From Gammaproteobacteria bacterium (GTDB lineage: Bacteria > Pseudomonadota > Gammaproteobacteria > SZUA-140): a stretch of 43,093 nt of DNA. The stretch covers positions 1 through 43,093 of the forward strand of contig JADLET010000117.1 of NCBI GenBank assembly GCA_020845975.1. Reading direction: 5' to 3'. Below are positions 28,893 to 39,082 of this stretch, one piece after another. The notes beneath the pieces are model-generated. The model saw only the letters and a list, made by a program, of their open reading frames with translations, had not been told where the DNA came from and made no database searches. Both the position numbers and the translations under genes were made by a program. The stretch's first letter is position 1. Every line of letters begins with the position of its first letter.

Positions 28893-30242
28893 ATGAAAGA
28901 TCGTGAGAAGGAGCTGTTGAGTGCGCCTTCCGGTCCGCGGTCCATAAGATCGCGGGAGACGGGAGACCCGGCCCGCGCGCAGGGCCGCGTGAGCGCAATC
29001 GAGCGACGCCTGCTGGCGTACATGCTCGACGCCATTGGCAATCCGCCTGTGCAGCTCGTGCTGTGGGACGGTGAGCGATTCAATTGCTCCAGGCTTTCTC
29101 CCGTCGCGCGCGTACACGTCCACGACCGCAGCGCGCTCTTGCACCTGATCCTGGATCCTGAGCTCTATTTCGGTGACGCCTATACGAACGGCGGCATCGA
29201 GGTCGAGGGCGATCTGGTCGGATTCCTTGAGGGTATCTATCGCAGTATGGCGCGCGCCGGAGCGAACAGGCCGCTGCGTAAATTCCTGCTGAGCTGGTTC
29301 CATCGGCCGTGTTCGACCGCGATCGCCGAGGCGCGCGACAACATTTACAGTCATTACGACATCAGCAATGAGTTCTACCGCCTGTGGCTCGACGAGCGCA
29401 TGGTATACACCTGCGCCTACTTTCCTTCGCCCGAGGCGACCCTGGAGCAGGCCCAGATTGCGAAGATGCATCATGTCTGCCGCAAATTGCGTCTGCGCCA
29501 GGGGGAGAGCGTCGTGGAGGCGGGCTGCGGCTGGGGCTCGCTCGCGCTGTTCATGGCGCGTCACTACGGTGTGCGCGTGCGGGCCTACAATATTTCGCGC
29601 GAACAGATTGCTTATGCGCGCCGGCAGGCGGAACTGCAGGGGCTGGATTCCCGCGTCGAGTTCGTAGAGGACGATTATCGCAATATTACCGGCGCCTGCG
29701 ATGCCTTCGTCTCGGTGGGCATGCTGGAGCATGTCGGGCAGAGGTACTATCGCTCGCTCGGGAAGGTGATCAACCGCGTGCTGACGGCCGACGGACGCGG
29801 CCTCATCCATTCGATCGGCCGCATCCGGCCCGGGCAGATGAACGCCTGGATCGAGAAACGCATCTTCCCCGGCGCCGCGCCGCCCAGCCTGGCCGAAATG
29901 ATGGAGATTTTCGAGCCCGTCGGTCTGGCCGTGCTTGATGTCGAAAACTTGCGCCTGCACTACGCACGCACACTGGAGCACTGGTTGCGGCGCTTCAATC
30001 GCGCCGAGGCGGGCGTCGAGGAAATGTTCGACGCCCGCTTCGTACGTGCCTGGCGTCTCTACCTCGCCGGATCAATCGCGGCATTCCTGAGCAGTGATCT
30101 GCAGCTGTTCCAGGTGGTGTTCAATCGCGGCTCCAGCAACGAGGTCCCTTGGACGCGGGAGCACCTTTACCGTGATCGCGCCGGTGAGAAGTCCGCGCCG
30201 GACACCGAGGAGGCGGCGGCGCGTGAGCACGCCCCCGTTTGA
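28893..30242 (+). CDS. cfa: Cyclopropane-fatty-acyl-phospholipid synthase-type methyltransferase
   Basis: A 449-residue SAM-dependent lipid methyltransferase of the Cfa family. The N-terminal lipid-binding domain has FGDAYTNGGIEVEGDL (about 93-108). SYHYDISNEFY-type motif NIYSHYDISNEFYRLWLDER and MVYTCAYF precede the SAM site VEAGCGWGSLALFMARHYG at about 208-226; VSVGMLEHVG follows. The enzyme methylates acyl-chain double bonds of membrane phospholipids; the usual product is a cyclopropane, but related enzymes make methylene or methyl branches. It is about 65 residues longer than E. coli Cfa. The next gene, a flavoprotein reductase, starts 20 bp before this stop, suggesting the pair makes one modified lipid. 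Confidence 0.9.
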   Translation: MKDREKELLSAPSGPRSIRSRETGDPARAQGRVSAIERRLLAYMLDAIGNPPVQLVLWDGERFNCSRLSPVARVHVHDRSALLHLILDPELYFGDAYTNGGIEVEGDLVGFLEGIYRSMARAGANRPLRKFLLSWFHRPCSTAIAEARDNIYSHYDISNEFYRLWLDERMVYTCAYFPSPEATLEQAQIAKMHHVCRKLRLRQGESVVEAGCGWGSLALFMARHYGVRVRAYNISREQIAYARRQAELQGLDSRVEFVEDDYRNITGACDAFVSVGMLEHVGQRYYRSLGKVINRVLTADGRGLIHSIGRIRPGQMNAWIEKRIFPGAAPPSLAEMMEIFEPVGLAVLDVENLRLHYARTLEHWLRRFNRAEAGVEEMFDARFVRAWRLYLAGSIAAFLSSDLQLFQVVFNRGSSNEVPWTREHLYRDRAGEKSAPDTEEAAAREHAPV

Positions 30243-31365
30243 GAGCTGTGATGTCTTGATCGTCGGCGGCGGGCCAGCCGGTTCAACCTGCGCCCGCGCG
30301 CTGTGCCGCGCCGGTCTCGACGTCGTGGTGATGGACAGGCAGGAATTCCCGCGTGACAAGGTATGTGCCGGCTGGATCACCCCGTCGGTGATCAACCTGC
30401 TCGAACTCGACGTGGAAGATTACCGGCAGGGGCGGGTGTTCCAGCCGATCACATCCTTTTTGACCGGCATCGACGGCGGGCCGCAGGTGGCCACGATCTA
30501 TGACAGTGAGGTCAGCTTCGGCATCCGGCGCTGTGAGTTTGACAATTATCTGTTGCGGCGTTCGGGGGTGCGCCTCGTGCTTGGCGAGGCGCTCGATTCG
30601 ATGCGGCGCTCGGGGCGCGGCTGGGTCGTCAATGATCACGTCGAGACGCCGCTGGTGATCGGGGCGGGCGGGCATTTCTGTCCGGTCGCGCGACATCTCG
30701 GGGCCCGGCCCGGGAGAGGAGAGATCGCGGTTGCCGCGCAAGAGATCGAGTTCGAACTCGACGCCGGGCAGCGGCACACCTGCGGCATTCAGCCGCAAAT
30801 GCCGGAGCTGTTCTTCTGCGACGACATGAAAGGCTACGGCTGGTGTTTCCGCAAGGGGAATTTTCTCAACGTCGGTCTGGGCCGTGAAGGCGGGCATCAG
30901 CTTTCCCGGCATGTGCAGGCGTTCCGCGCATCTCTCATCGCGCGGGGCAAGATCCCGCCCGGCACCCCGGCCGATTTTCACGGCCACGCCTATCTGCTGT
31001 ACTCCAGTGCACGGCGCGCGGTGGTCGACAACGGCGCCCTGCTGATCGGTGACGCCGCCGGCCTGGCTTATCCACAGAGCGGCGAAGGTATCCGCCCTGC
31101 GATCGAGTCCGCGCTGATGGCGGCGCAGATCGTGCAATCCGCCGCGGGAGATTACCGTCATGCCAGGCTGGCGCCCTATCAGGATCGACTGGGTGCGCGC
31201 TATGGTCTGCGGGAGGCGCCGGCGTCGCAGGGCCTTCTGCCGGAGCGGTTCAAAATGGCGGTGGCGGGCTGGCTGCTGCGGTCACGCTGGTTCGCCCGCC
31301 ATGTCGTGCTGGACCGCTGGTTCCTGCACAAACATGACAAGCCGCTGGTAACGCCTTCTGCCTGA
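30223..31365 (+). CDS. Geranylgeranyl-reductase-like FAD-dependent oxidoreductase
   Basis: A 380-residue flavoprotein. The FAD-binding motif is CDVLIVGGGPAGSTCARAL with GGGPAG at 15-20, the second FAD motif is LLIGDAAGLAYPQSGEGI at 274-290, and KGYGWCFRKGNFLNVGLG at 203-220 corresponds to the geranylgeranyl-reductase motif YxWxFPKG...NVG, with Arg in place of Pro. This family reduces carbon-carbon double bonds in prenyl or lipid chains. I chose the GTG at 30223, with GAGGAGG upstream. The overlap with cfa implies translational coupling and a shared substrate, possibly an acyl chain methylated by the first enzyme. An electron donor is not encoded nearby. Confidence 0.85.
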   Translation: MSTPPFESCDVLIVGGGPAGSTCARALCRAGLDVVVMDRQEFPRDKVCAGWITPSVINLLELDVEDYRQGRVFQPITSFLTGIDGGPQVATIYDSEVSFGIRRCEFDNYLLRRSGVRLVLGEALDSMRRSGRGWVVNDHVETPLVIGAGGHFCPVARHLGARPGRGEIAVAAQEIEFELDAGQRHTCGIQPQMPELFFCDDMKGYGWCFRKGNFLNVGLGREGGHQLSRHVQAFRASLIARGKIPPGTPADFHGHAYLLYSSARRAVVDNGALLIGDAAGLAYPQSGEGIRPAIESALMAAQIVQSAAGDYRHARLAPYQDRLGARYGLREAPASQGLLPERFKMAVAGWLLRSRWFARHVVLDRWFLHKHDKPLVTPSA

Positions 31366-32624: not shown

Positions 32625-33332
32625 CTATTTGCGCAGAGACTGGCGCAGCGTGGCCGCCAGCGTGGCGGCCAGTTGCTCCTGATCGGCATTGCCACGGAGC
32701 CGGCCATGGTTGATCTCGAGCTCGATGCCGGCATAACGCGAGGCGGGGAAACGGGTGCGCAGATAGCGGGTGAGACCGTCGCTTGCGCCGCGGTAGGGAT
32801 AGTTGCGCCGCACAGTGAGTGAACCGCTGCCCGACTCCTGCAGGGCGGCGCGCCAGCGCTGGCACAGGGCGGCCTCCACCCGGCGGGCGGGATCGTACAG
32901 CAGGCCAATATCCGCCTTGCGCGTCACCCCGTCCAGTACCGGCGTAAAGCTGTGCACGGCCACATGCACGACGCGGTGTCCCGCGGTGATGCGGGCCTCC
33001 ACCCAGCGTTCCACGCGCGCCCGGTGCGGGTGGTAGTAACGCGTGAGCACGCGATCCTTCTCTTTCCGCGGCAGTGTCCGGGTGAGCGCCGAGAACAGCG
33101 CGGGGTGACCGGGGGAGCGGTTGAGGTCCACCAGCAGGCGACTGCAGGATGCCGCGATCAGCGGTGCGCGCAGCCGGCGCCCGATGGCCCGCGCGCAGGC
33201 GAGCGCGCCGGGATCATAACCCCGGTGGCTGGCGATTAATGAGCCACAGCCATGGAACAAATGACGATACTCATCCGGTATGCGGTTGGAGGCATGCTCG
33301 CAACTCAACAGCAGGACCGGCCCGTCAGTCAT
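32625..33332 (-). CDS. N-formylglutamate-amidohydrolase-like enzyme
   Basis: A 235-residue protein of the N-formylglutamate amidohydrolase (FGase) family. Zinc-site and family signatures are LLLSCEHASNRIPDEYR at the N-terminus, ASHRGYDPGALACARAIG, RLLVDLNRS and VVHVAVHSFTPVLDG. The end has YAGIELEINHGRLR. In histidine breakdown FGase cleaves formyl-glutamate, but no hut genes are near. It is the last member of the C39-RimK-GCS2 operon, so it more likely cleaves an amide bond in the product made by those ligases. The ATG at 33330-33332 overlaps the end of the GCS2 gene by 8 bp; a TTG just before it is less likely. Confidence 0.9.
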   Translation of the reverse strand: MTDGPVLLLSCEHASNRIPDEYRHLFHGCGSLIASHRGYDPGALACARAIGRRLRAPLIAASCSRLLVDLNRSPGHPALFSALTRTLPRKEKDRVLTRYYHPHRARVERWVEARITAGHRVVHVAVHSFTPVLDGVTRKADIGLLYDPARRVEAALCQRWRAALQESGSGSLTVRRNYPYRGASDGLTRYLRTRFPASRYAGIELEINHGRLRGNADQEQLAATLAATLRQSLRK

Positions 33333-34587
33333 CAAACAAGGTGCCCTGCGCCAGGCAGTCGCACAGGCGGCGGTAGACAGTTTTCATCCGGTCGGGCGAC
33401 GGCGTGTTCTCCAGTGCGCCGGCGATACGGCGCGCCAGGCTGCCGCGCCGCAGGTATAGACGGTAGACTTCCAGCCATGCCGCCGACAGATCGGTGCGCG
33501 GGAAAATCAGCGTCTCGATGAGATGCTGCCACAGGTCGCGGGCGCGACAGGGGCCGCGCTCCGGAAATCCGAAGGCGGCGCGGAAATCGTCATCGTCGAT
33601 CACCGCCTGGTCGGCATGCTGTACGCACAGCATGAAGAGCCGCTGCAGCGGTCCGCTGTCCCATTTCTGCAAATGCCGCAGGCCGCACCAGTGTTCCTCC
33701 GTCAGGGCGCGCACAATCTCGACGACGAGCGCGGCCACGGCGATGTCCGCGGCTGGGCATTCCTGGGTGTCGAGCACACGGATCTCAATGGTGTTGCGGT
33801 CGAAGCGCGCGATCGCCCCGCGTGCGTTGACCCACTCGTGTCGAAGTACGCCTTCCGGGTCGAGCGGGGACATGTCACGGTAGATACGTTGCAATATCTC
33901 CGATTCGTAGGCGCGCTGTGAGTAGGCCGGCTCCGGGATGATCCGGCCGGTTACCGACGGGACGCGCCGGCAGTTGTCGCGGTAGACCTCCAGCCGGTTG
34001 TCCAGCAGACCAGTGAGGCGGCCGTCCATGACGGGAGAACTGGCGGCGAGCGCGGGCATCAGCGGCATTGCCATGCGTACGGCCGCGTGCAGGCGCGCGA
34101 ATTCTTCATCGTCGGCGAACGGCAGGTTGATGTGCATGCTTTGCAGGTTCGACCAGCCGTGTCCCTGGCAGCCAAAGATGCGGTCAAAGGTCCGGTAGAT
34201 AGCACTGTTGTCGTAAGGCCACAGTCGTGTCTCGCGTTCCGGATCCATCCAGGGATGCATGGCCGTCGGCATCAGGCGTCCACCGAGCGGCGCGAGCAGG
34301 GCGTTGAGACGGGTGACGTCACGCTGAAAGTCCTGGTGCAGCCCGGTGAGCGAGCGGGCCGGACCGTTGGTCTTCATCTCGATGACGTGCAGGGCGAGTT
34401 CATTGGACCAGGCAAGCGAGCCGGTTTCGACCTCGTTGGCGAATCCCCCCGCGAGGGATTCGAGCGCGCGGTCGGCCACGGGCAGCACGGACAGGCTGTC
34501 CCCGTCCACGATCATGTATTCCAGCTCAATGCCGTAGGCCTCGAACAGGCCCAGATCCGGCTGCTCGTCAACGCGGCTTGCGTTCAC
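33325..34587 (-). CDS. GCS2-type carboxylate-amine ligase (COG2170-like)
   Basis: A 420-residue member of the glutamate-cysteine ligase family 2. The N-terminal active-site signature is FEAYGIELEYMIVDGD (about 14-29), followed by NELALHVIEMKTNGP, the MHPWMDP motif and MHINLPFADDEEF. The C-terminal half includes NARGAIARFDRNTIEIRVLDTQECP, the metal/substrate end of the site. The family joins an amino acid's carboxylate to an amine with ATP; whether glutamate or another acid is used here is unknown. The start is GTG at 34585-34587, with GAGGA upstream, and overlaps the RimK-like gene by 20 bp. Position between RimK-like ligase and amidohydrolase suggests it extends or caps the same product. Confidence 0.9.
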   Translation of the reverse strand: MNASRVDEQPDLGLFEAYGIELEYMIVDGDSLSVLPVADRALESLAGGFANEVETGSLAWSNELALHVIEMKTNGPARSLTGLHQDFQRDVTRLNALLAPLGGRLMPTAMHPWMDPERETRLWPYDNSAIYRTFDRIFGCQGHGWSNLQSMHINLPFADDEEFARLHAAVRMAMPLMPALAASSPVMDGRLTGLLDNRLEVYRDNCRRVPSVTGRIIPEPAYSQRAYESEILQRIYRDMSPLDPEGVLRHEWVNARGAIARFDRNTIEIRVLDTQECPAADIAVAALVVEIVRALTEEHWCGLRHLQKWDSGPLQRLFMLCVQHADQAVIDDDDFRAAFGFPERGPCRARDLWQHLIETLIFPRTDLSAAWLEVYRLYLRRGSLARRIAGALENTPSPDRMKTVYRRLCDCLAQGTLFDD

Positions 34588-36037
34588 CCTTGCGTTCCTC
34601 GATGCGGGCCAGCATGCCGCGCATGATCCTGGTGTAAAGATCGAGCTGGATGATGCCGTCCTCAAGACCGGAATCGATGTTCGGATTGTCATTGATCTCG
34701 ATTACGAAGACTTTCGAGTCGATCTCCTTGGCATCGACGCCGTAGAGCCCGTCGCCGATCAGGTTGGCCGCCTTGAGGGCGGTGGTGACGATGTTGCGCG
34801 GCACCTGCTCGATCGGGATCGCCTCGGTGCGTCCCTCGCGCGGCTGGCCGGCGTGGTTGTGGTTGATGATCTGCCAGTGACCGTGCGCCATGTAATACTT
34901 GCAGGCATAGAGCGGCTCGCGGTTGAACACCCCTATGCGCCAGTCGAACGGCGTGGGCATGAACTCCTGCGCGATGATCAGGTCGGATTTTTCCAGCATG
35001 CGCGTCGCTTCGGTGATGAATTCCGCCTTGCTGCCGACCTTGATCACGCCCTGCGAGAAGGCGCTGTCCGGCTGCTTGAGGATGCATGGCATGGCAATGG
35101 TCCCGGCCACGGCCGGCATGTTGCCGCGATTGACGATGCTGGTATTGGGTGTCGGGATCCTGTGGCGTGACATCAGCTCGGCCAGATACACCTTGTTGGT
35201 GCACTTGAGGATCGAGGCGGGATCATCGATGACCACCAGGCCCTCCGCGGTCGCGCGGCGCGCGAAGCGGTAGGTGTGGTGGTTCACGCCGGTGGTCTCG
35301 CGGATGAACAATGCGTCGAATTCAGCGATACGACCGTAATCGTTCTTGGTGATCATTTCCACGTCGAAGTCGAGCTGTTGCGCCGCCTTGATGAATTTCT
35401 TCAGGGCCTTGGCGTCGGATGGCGGCTGCGCCTCCGCGGGATTGTGGAGTATCGCCAGGTCGTAGCGCATCACCTGCTGCGTGCGCCGGCGCAGGCCCTT
35501 GCCGGCGAAATGTTCGCTCGCGGTCTGCAGCAGGAACGGCTTGTGATCGTCCGGGATGTCGTTCCCGGCGATGGGCCCGATGCTTTGCAGCTGCCAGTTA
35601 CGGTTGTGGATGAAGCGCGCGCGCAGCAGCGGCGCCGGGAACAGGTTGAACAGCGTCAGGCTGAGGCGCGCGTAGCGCTTGGCGAAATTGCGCCCGAAAT
35701 AGATGCTGAGCTCGTACTCCTCCGACCTGATCGGCGCCAGCGTGCGCTGGATCAGTTCGAACAAGTCATCGGACACGAAGCGCGTCATGGTCTGCGACTT
35801 CATGTCCTGGATCGTGTTCACGCTCGGCAGCGGTTTGTGGCCGCGCGCCTCGGCGAGCAGCGAAACATAGTAGCCCACGCTCTGGTAGCGATACGAGCGG
35901 CACAGGTTGAAGATCTTGAGACCGCGCAGATCGCTGAAGCGCGGATCAGACAGGTAGGTCTTGGCCGCGATGACCTCCGCTCCGTGGATGTTCAGCGGCC
36001 AGTCTTCCGGGTTGTTAACTACTATGAATATCGACAT
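34568..36037 (-). CDS. RimK-like ATP-grasp ligase
   Basis: A 489-residue ligase. An N-terminal RimK-like domain (RLAN-type, about 1-150, starting MSIFIVVNNPEDWPLN) precedes an ATP-grasp domain. Visible ATP-grasp features are NKVYLAELMSRHRIPTPNT (about 286-304), MPCILKQPDSAFSQGVIKV, IIAQEFMPTPFDWRIGVF and the Mg2+-binding end VFVIEINDNPNIDSG. Such enzymes add amino acids, often glutamate, to protein or peptide carboxylates. The start ATG at 36035-36037 is chosen because the RLAN domain begins there. It overlaps the C39 gene by 23 bp and the GCS2 gene by 20 bp, evidence of tight coexpression. The acceptor and donor are unknown. Confidence 0.92.
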   Translation of the reverse strand: MSIFIVVNNPEDWPLNIHGAEVIAAKTYLSDPRFSDLRGLKIFNLCRSYRYQSVGYYVSLLAEARGHKPLPSVNTIQDMKSQTMTRFVSDDLFELIQRTLAPIRSEEYELSIYFGRNFAKRYARLSLTLFNLFPAPLLRARFIHNRNWQLQSIGPIAGNDIPDDHKPFLLQTASEHFAGKGLRRRTQQVMRYDLAILHNPAEAQPPSDAKALKKFIKAAQQLDFDVEMITKNDYGRIAEFDALFIRETTGVNHHTYRFARRATAEGLVVIDDPASILKCTNKVYLAELMSRHRIPTPNTSIVNRGNMPAVAGTIAMPCILKQPDSAFSQGVIKVGSKAEFITEATRMLEKSDLIIAQEFMPTPFDWRIGVFNREPLYACKYYMAHGHWQIINHNHAGQPREGRTEAIPIEQVPRNIVTTALKAANLIGDGLYGVDAKEIDSKVFVIEINDNPNIDSGLEDGIIQLDLYTRIMRGMLARIEERKGERKPR

Positions 36038-36752
36038 GACGGGGCTGTGGCGGTTGCTCGCGTGGCTCAATGATTAACAGGTTGGCGTCGTGGGTCAACA
36101 CGCCGAGCAGGATCGCTCCCAGCACGCGGTCGATGCTGATCTCATAAACCTGGCCCGGCGCCAGCGGGTTGGGGTGCAGCGGATCCATGATCAGCACCGA
36201 TCGTGTCTCGGCCGTATAGCCGGCCAGGATCACGAAATGTCCGCTCGGCAAGCCGCGCACATCGTCGTAGAGCGGGCCGTGCTCGCGCGTCGAGTGGTAA
36301 AGATAGGTGGCGCTGAGGCCGGTCAGGATGGGGATACCGCGCTTGAGGTAGCGCCGGATCAGCCCGCTGGTGAGATCCTCGAAGCGCAAGGTCCCGCCCA
36401 GTTCGATGTAATCCATGTAGGCATCGGTAGCGATCTTGAATCGTGACGAGTTCTTGAACACCAGTTGCCGGCTCAGGCGATCGCGCAGGTCGATGTCCTG
36501 CGCGCCGAACCAGGAGGGATCGAACATCTCCAGGTTGTAGGTGAAGATCTTGGTCCGGTAGCCGCGCCGCAGCGCGTGACAGGCGAGAAACACCGCCAGT
36601 GTCCCGCCGTCGCGCAGGGTGGGGATCTCGCCGATCAGCCGGTCGAGGGGAACCTCGTCGCTGAAATAGCTGTAGACCGCATGCAGGCAGGTGGGACCGC
36701 AGGTCGTCTCGTCGGGCTGCGGCAGGATGTCGAGATTGAGACGATGCTCCAT
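36015..36752 (-). CDS. C39-like papain-fold peptidase
   Basis: A 245-residue cysteine peptidase-like protein. The active-site Cys18 lies in LPQPDETTCGPTCL, the His172 in LPSGHFVILAGY and Asp190 in LIMDPLHPNP, giving a full C39 triad. In other genomes this domain is often fused to a GNAT acetyltransferase beside RimK-like and GCS2 ligases; here it stands alone and no GNAT gene is seen. No signal peptide or TM is present, so it acts in the cytoplasm, perhaps trimming a precursor or acting as a transpeptidase. It starts the overlapping set that ends with the amidohydrolase. Confidence 0.88.
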   Translation of the reverse strand: MEHRLNLDILPQPDETTCGPTCLHAVYSYFSDEVPLDRLIGEIPTLRDGGTLAVFLACHALRRGYRTKIFTYNLEMFDPSWFGAQDIDLRDRLSRQLVFKNSSRFKIATDAYMDYIELGGTLRFEDLTSGLIRRYLKRGIPILTGLSATYLYHSTREHGPLYDDVRGLPSGHFVILAGYTAETRSVLIMDPLHPNPLAPGQVYEISIDRVLGAILLGVLTHDANLLIIEPREQPPQPRHVDIHSS

Positions 36753-38453: not shown

Positions 38454-38560
38454 GGGAATCCTTTGTCGGTTAGAATCCGGTCTATGCCGGTCTCGATGCA
38501 TCTATCATACGGCAGTTGCGCTTGCGGCAGCGCGTGCGGCAGCGCGCGGGAGGAAGCGTC

Positions 38561-39082
38561 ATGAACGATGATACGCCGGAAGGCGCGGGTGACATCACGG
38601 CGGAGGCGGCGCGCTTTCGCGCCGGTTTCCGTTCCGTCATGCTCGCCACCGTCGATGCGGACGGGACCCCGGAGGCAAGTTATGCCCCGTATGTCACGGG
38701 CGCCAACGGATGTTTTTATATCTTCGTGAGCGGGCTTGCGCGCCATACCCGCAACCTGGCGCGAAGCGGCAAGGCCGCGGCGCTATTCCTGCAGGAAGAG
38801 GGCGCCGCCGCCAATCCGTTTGTCCGCGTGCGCCTGAGTTATTCCTGCGCGGCGGTTGCCGTCGCCCCCGATACGCGGGAATGGGCGGAGGCGATGGAGC
38901 ATTTCGAGCGGGAGTTCGGCAACATCGTTCCGGTCCTGCGTTCGCTGCCGGATTTCCGTCTGTTTCGCCTGGCGCCGGATCCGGGGCGCTATGTGCGCGG
39001 CTTCGGCCGGGCCTACGATCTGAAGGATGGGAGTCCGGTTCTGGTCGGGCCGGGCAGGCCGACGCCAGGCGGGCCGGGGTGA
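38561..39082 (+). CDS. HugZ-like pyridoxamine-phosphate-oxidase-fold protein
   Basis: A 173-residue split-barrel flavin/heme-binding-fold protein. The N-terminal VMLATVDADGTPEASYAPYV is the typical split-barrel start; the end FRLFRLAPDPGRYVRGFGRAY resembles HugZ/HutZ heme-degrading proteins (GFGRAY motif). It may bind FMN or heme; the activity is not decided by sequence. I chose the ATG at 38561 because GGAGG lies about 7 bases upstream, ahead of the conserved region. It is divergent from the M42-like gene across 107 bp, where three imperfect copies of TGCGGCAGCGC lie at 38519-38550. No heme-uptake genes are nearby. Confidence 0.88.
   Translation: MNDDTPEGAGDITAEAARFRAGFRSVMLATVDADGTPEASYAPYVTGANGCFYIFVSGLARHTRNLARSGKAAALFLQEEGAAANPFVRVRLSYSCAAVAVAPDTREWAEAMEHFEREFGNIVPVLRSLPDFRLFRLAPDPGRYVRGFGRAYDLKDGSPVLVGPGRPTPGGPG

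Follow-up and report, generated by a model that had tools for sequence, protein, structure and literature searches.

A widespread C39-RimK-GCS2-FGase gene cassette in a gammaproteobacterial genome, with a possible role in small glutamate-type peptide metabolism

The window analysed here, the 43,093-nucleotide contig JADLET010000117.1 of a gammaproteobacterium, carries an ordinary member of a known, widespread and annotated cassette that is as yet uncharacterised. It encodes a C39-like cysteine peptidase, a RimK-type ligase with an RLAN domain, a GCS2-type ligase and a protein of the N-formylglutamate amidohydrolase family (FGase). As read from the sequence, these four tightly packed genes would form one operon that makes and trims a small peptide or peptide-like metabolite of the glutamate type, joined by amide bonds; to this joint reading we give slightly less than an even chance. 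The grounds established here are the operon anatomy, the catalytic residues, the conservation across phyla and the mutual exclusivity of two locus types, A (C39-RimK-GCS2, with or without FGase) and B (a GNAT acetyltransferase, often fused to PF11814/DUF3335, with RimK and no GCS2). The cassette is strongly conserved across phyla, and the absence of a GNAT, which had come as a surprise in the first-pass annotation, is explained and ordinary.

Table 1. Position of the cassette genes and adjoining features in the window.
Feature	Position	Strand	Remarks
C39-like (papain-fold) cysteine peptidase or transpeptidase, predicted	36015..36752	-	245 aa; C18/H172/D190
RLAN-RimK ATP-grasp ligase, predicted	34568..36037	-	489 aa; start ATG 36037
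RLAN domain (PF14401) of RimK protein	35528..35965 (wider span 35468-36037)	-	Pfam and fold prediction
GCS2-type carboxylate-amine ligase, predicted	33325..34587	-	start GTG 34587
FGase (N-formylglutamate amidohydrolase family) metallo-amidohydrolase, predicted	32625..33332	-	start ATG 33332
M42-like (glutamyl aminopeptidase family) gene, upstream of C39	37263..38501	-	membership of the unit uncertain

Start and stop codons were read from the sequence, and the overlaps of 23, 20 and 8 bp given in the first-pass annotation proved exact. The C39 gene ends (TAG, 36017-36015) 23 bp inside RimK (ATG, 36037), RimK ends (TGA, 34570-34568) 20 bp inside GCS2 (GTG, 34587), and GCS2 ends (TGA, 33327-33325) 8 bp inside the FGase gene (ATG, 33332). 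The first-start versions in the open reading frame list were longer (RimK from 36070, GCS2 from 34692, FGase from 33335); for RimK, most relatives aligned only from about residue 12, which corresponds to the ATG at 36037. An M42-like gene was also found upstream of the cassette in two genomes of the same taxonomic family (G001 and G004), and the linkage was confined to that family. Divergent from the M42 gene, positions 38516-39082 encode a HutZ/HugZ-like haem utilisation protein, in whose name 'Hut' refers to haem and not to histidine.

Pfam searches assigned the C39 protein to Peptidase_C39_2 (5e-10), PF13529 and PF03412 being its only matches; the RimK protein to RLAN (PF14401, 1e-46) and RimK (PF08443, 1.5e-5); and the remaining two to GCS2 (1e-33) and FGase (6e-25). 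The matches to NCBIfam models (rimK_fam, LysX, YbdK/GshA and similar) were all sub-threshold. RimK scored 63 bits against the RimK family model TIGR00768, short of the curated cut-off of 143 that was taken as the mark of an S6-type RimK, and the best score for GCS2 was 64 bits against TIGR02050 (cut-off 176), with the glutamate-cysteine ligase models lower still. GCS2 was closest to the YbdK-type models, under every curated cut-off, and YbdK was found by PDB profile search.

The catalytic residues of C39, RimK and GCS2, noted as intact in the window, were conserved across alignments of their relatives. In the C39 protein, C18 and H172 were invariant and D190 was at least 90% conserved in a 47-row alignment, and a 72-row alignment gave the same picture. 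Residues D435, E447 and N449 of RimK, conserved in locus types A and B, aligned to the D..E.N magnesium-binding end of solved RimK/LysX structures. For GCS2, the E21-x-E23 motif was at least 90% conserved among relatives, and the E-x-E residues, H67, E70, K72, H143, N147, E268 and R270 were invariant or nearly so. The FGase showed invariant C11-E12-H13, H36, D40, N71-R72-S73, H127, E204 and E206, and its PDB profile match was Atu2144 (2odf, 4e-41).

A search with the RimK protein returned 468 relatives, of which the best 80 loci, from many phyla, were used. Where enough flanking DNA was available, C39 was present upstream in 71 of 78 loci, GCS2 downstream in 69 of 72, and FGase within the operon in 38 of 63. 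Chance arrangement can be excluded, because the order C39-RimK-GCS2 recurred in most of the 80. Short overlaps between adjacent cassette genes were usual. The families were 40-64% identical to the window proteins across phyla, with active sites kept, and the cassette was found in more than 10 bacterial phyla (Planctomycetota, Verrucomicrobiota, Thermodesulfobacteriota, Myxococcota, Fibrobacterota, Chlamydiota, Spirochaetes and others), and also in Legionella. Cultured carriers of a type A locus include Desulfobulbus alkaliphilus (L054) and Blastopirellula marina (L045). In the RefSeq record of Legionella adelaidensis (NZ_LR134436), RimK, GCS2 and FGase follow the order of the window and are annotated as 'RimK family protein', 'glutamate-cysteine ligase family protein' and 'N-formylglutamate amidohydrolase'; the record begins within RimK, and the C39 position falls outside it. 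The genes stayed together even where their order differed, with C39 relocated to the cassette end in two Chlamydiia (L081, L088) and FGase placed first at one locus (L060). A divergent C39-RimK-GCS2 version occurs in three Planctomycetota (L217, L218 and L219), with RimK profile matches split in the RLAN part.

About 40% of the loci whose flanks were long enough had no FGase in the operon. It was found elsewhere in 7 of 13 genomes without an operon FGase, and 6 of those 7 scored like operon FGases. A second C39 paralogue was paired with an FGase, away from RimK-GCS2, in the genomes of L041 and L052 (L182:2044-3677 and L183:3012-4501). This suggests that the hydrolases (C39, FGase) and the ligases (RimK, GCS2) are separable halves, since in these two genomes the C39 paralogue-FGase pair stands apart from RimK-GCS2. 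No wider conserved neighbourhood was found across loci beyond the four genes; histidine kinases, regulators and DUF1501 genes recur near cassettes but look incidental. The flanks held no conserved small ORF, and thus no dedicated peptide precursor or carrier was seen. The idea of a RiPP or carrier protein was set aside, as those small ORFs that did recur resemble antisense shadows of large genes. No description of the four-gene combination was found in the literature searched, which did not cover Iyer et al. 2009; this founding survey of amidoligase neighbourhoods reportedly describes related RimK/GNAT/GCS2/papain-like neighbourhoods.

The proposal that the FGase does not serve histidine degradation was supported by the whole assembly. 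Neither urocanase nor HutH had a match anywhere in it (about 95% complete), and thus no hut genes were found beyond the window either. The window's FGase is the only one in the genome. A hut role for it there is very improbable, because neither urocanase nor HutH was found and FGase is tied to the ligases in many phyla.

No GNAT was detected by Pfam in the four proteins, where the first-pass annotation had allowed that a profile search might find one, or in the six neighbours scanned, in agreement with its statement that no acetyltransferase is fused or adjacent. Six Acetyltransf_1 genes occur in the genome, none of them on the window's contig. The expectation of a GNAT, on the ground that the C39 domain is often fused to one in such loci, is not supported, because the fusion is a feature of a different family: DUF3335 is often fused to GNAT (PMC10318531), and the fused C39-like domains of type B, in the examples tested, were PF11814 (1e-82 to 1e-86), which barely align with the window's C39. 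The latter did not reach PF11814, and a Pfam scan of 72 type A C39 proteins gave no match to a GNAT family. It is therefore highly improbable that the window is a GNAT-C39 locus that lost its GNAT. GNAT or GNAT-C39 is indeed common beside RLAN-RimK in Pseudomonadota (72 of the 80 loci sampled there), but the different C39 family, the lack of GNAT domains in type A C39 proteins and the phylogeny of RimK all stand against such a loss.

That phylogeny was a maximum-likelihood tree of 121 RimK proteins, in which all 45 type A rows fell on one side of a branch with SH-aLRT 100, as one clade that spans more than ten phyla, and type B on the other. The window RimK was represented by the copy from a same-genus genome (L175), which fell in the type A clade; the window protein itself shares 55-64% identity with type A sequences and 39-44% with those of type B. 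Type B loci share with the window an RLAN-RimK ligase family, often a papain-like partner, and an acyl-transferring partner. They differ in having GNAT instead of GCS2, no FGase, a PF11814 C39-like domain and a RimK outside the type A clade.

RLAN loci were also sampled without regard to the window, with positives in 72 of 398 genomes of Pseudomonadota, 15 of 55 relatives and 37 of 149 genomes of Planctomycetota. Among 116 loci taken from around these RLAN genes and scored by profile, 81 had a type B GNAT within 5 kb, 32 had GCS2, 3 had neither and none had both. One of the three (L169, from G004) is a contig end, with its GCS2 on another contig. This mutual exclusivity is a side result and possibly new. 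Judged by the tree, it reflects essentially one ancient partner change that then spread across phyla, and the locus counts should not be taken for independent events. Both types occur in the window's taxonomic family, in separate genomes (type A in G000, G001, G004 and G005; type B in G002 and G015).

A different GNAT, fused to a nitrilase (carbon-nitrogen hydrolase) domain, was found near five type A loci (L063:4093-5670, L068:5466-7223, L069:472-2076, L171:5845-7413 and L193:6759-8321), mostly in Planctomycetota, with one in a gammaproteobacterium. It lies directly upstream of C39 in L171 and between GCS2 and FGase in L193, and is distinct from the type B GNAT. The window's genome contained no full-length fusion of this kind, nitrilase-domain matches being all that was found. 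In five further Planctomycetota loci (L220-L224), a GNAT stands beside a very divergent, split-matching RLAN-RimK, whose RLAN may have an insertion.

AlphaFold models were made of the C39 protein and of the RLAN domain alone. The C39 model (pLDDT 91) gave C39 double-glycine peptidases as top Foldseek matches, and further matches were PeiR, a pseudomurein endoisopeptidase, and glutathione-bound phytochelatin synthase. The predicted fold fits an enzyme acting on peptide or isopeptide amides, without choosing among them. The RLAN model (pLDDT 92) matched ATP-grasp structures of LysX, ArgX, RimK and synapsin (E 6e-5, TM about 0.5 on the query), with a high rmsd, and held none of the ATP-grasp catalytic half. 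As a lead from the model, RLAN may be a shrunken ATP-grasp repeat, and RLAN-RimK a tandem with a degenerate first copy. This likeness is a side result, possibly also new.

Taken together, the most constant core consists of two predicted ATP-dependent amide-forming enzymes and a papain-like hydrolase, with FGase optional and capable of being unlinked. In the small-peptide reading, GCS2 would use ATP to activate a carboxylate, most likely a glutamate side-chain, and join it to an amine. RLAN-RimK would then activate the resulting product at its carboxyl end, again with ATP, and add a further amino acid, probably glutamate. C39 would cleave or transfer at one of the ligase-made amide bonds, and FGase, in a proof-reading or turnover step, would hydrolyse an amide of the N-acyl or glutamyl type. 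The glutamate specificity of GCS2 is a guess, because the protein is closest to YbdK-type models but below every curated cut-off. In type B operons, GNAT would stand in for GCS2 as the amine-acylating enzyme; the two are plausible substitutes because both acylate an amine, and their exclusivity narrows the chemistry. A more specific version, in which type A makes a glutamyl peptide metabolite in many Gram-negative phyla, GCS2 takes the N-capping role of the type B GNAT and RLAN is a degenerate second ATP-grasp unit holding the substrate, seems to us, taken as a whole, rather unlikely.

A COOH-NH2 ligase of the GCS2 type and an ATP-grasp enzyme form the glutathione synthesis pair where GshA is GCS2-type. 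The window resembles this pathway in having a COOH-NH2 ligase followed by an ATP-grasp ligase, but its GCS2 and RimK reach no curated cut-off for the enzymes concerned. That the operon replaces glutathione synthesis was not favoured, given a strong GSH-S_ATP (GshB-type) match in the window's genome; such a match was also present in nearly all type A and type B genomes tested. The match of the C39 model to glutathione-bound phytochelatin synthase, an isopeptidase and C39 peptidases supports a small-peptide product. So does a general statement in the literature: operon-linked ATP-grasp ligases, paired with COOH-NH2 ligases or GNATs, often perform successive peptide ligations, and a GNAT may cap the product (PMC4431377). 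NAGGN synthesis is a described small-peptide pathway, with an operon of AsnO, the GNAT-family Ngg and a glutamyl aminopeptidase (PMC8070244). What it has in common with the window is the principle of a small, capped peptide of glutamine/glutamate together with a glutamyl aminopeptidase gene, here the nearby M42-like gene, and the type B GNAT weakly matches the N-acetylglutaminylglutamine synthetase model TIGR03103. The window, however, has neither an asparagine synthetase nor a fused GNAT-ATP-grasp protein. Models of the NAGGN trio (TIGR03103 and partners) had no match among the window proteins scanned at E 1e-3, and the M42 protein matched no NCBIfam model.

Against the small-peptide reading, the best-studied RimK target is a protein (S6), which makes a protein target possible; FGase, missing from many operons, is not strictly needed; and the cassette holds no export or regulation gene that would name a role. 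The cassette might instead tag and untag proteins, with RimK, perhaps together with GCS2, adding amino acids to a protein C-terminus or side chain, C39 removing the tag and FGase salvaging the released piece. We regard this as a serious rival, although the less likely of the two. Among solved structures, RimK/LysX come closest to the ATP-grasp part, and a substrate peptide is not encoded nearby, which fits a housekeeping protein target. In Escherichia coli and Pseudomonas, ribosomal protein S6 is glutamylated by RimK, whose partner is the protease RimB (PMC12239564). The window likewise has a RimK-type ATP-grasp adjoining a protease, but RimB is an aspartic (retropepsin-like) protease, and RimK-RimB lacks GCS2, FGase and RLAN. 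GCS2 partners typically go with the ligation of small molecules, and known FGase members act on small N-acyl amino acids. To our knowledge, the RLAN domain and GCS2 or GNAT partners are not features of S6-type RimK, which also counts against protein tagging.

A mainly catabolic or salvage role, where C39 and FGase would open glutamyl or N-acyl peptides taken up from outside and the ligases would use the fragments again, appears distinctly unlikely. Hydrolases make up two of the four genes, the M42-like peptidase gene lies upstream in the window's taxonomic family, and five type A loci are accompanied by a GNAT-nitrilase amidase fusion. The most constant part of the cassette, however, contains two ATP-consuming ligases, the optional part is a hydrolase, and no transporter is linked. 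Elsewhere in the window, positions 28893-31365 encode a cyclopropane fatty acid synthase and then a geranylgeranyl-reductase-like FAD protein, possibly a lipid-modification pair.
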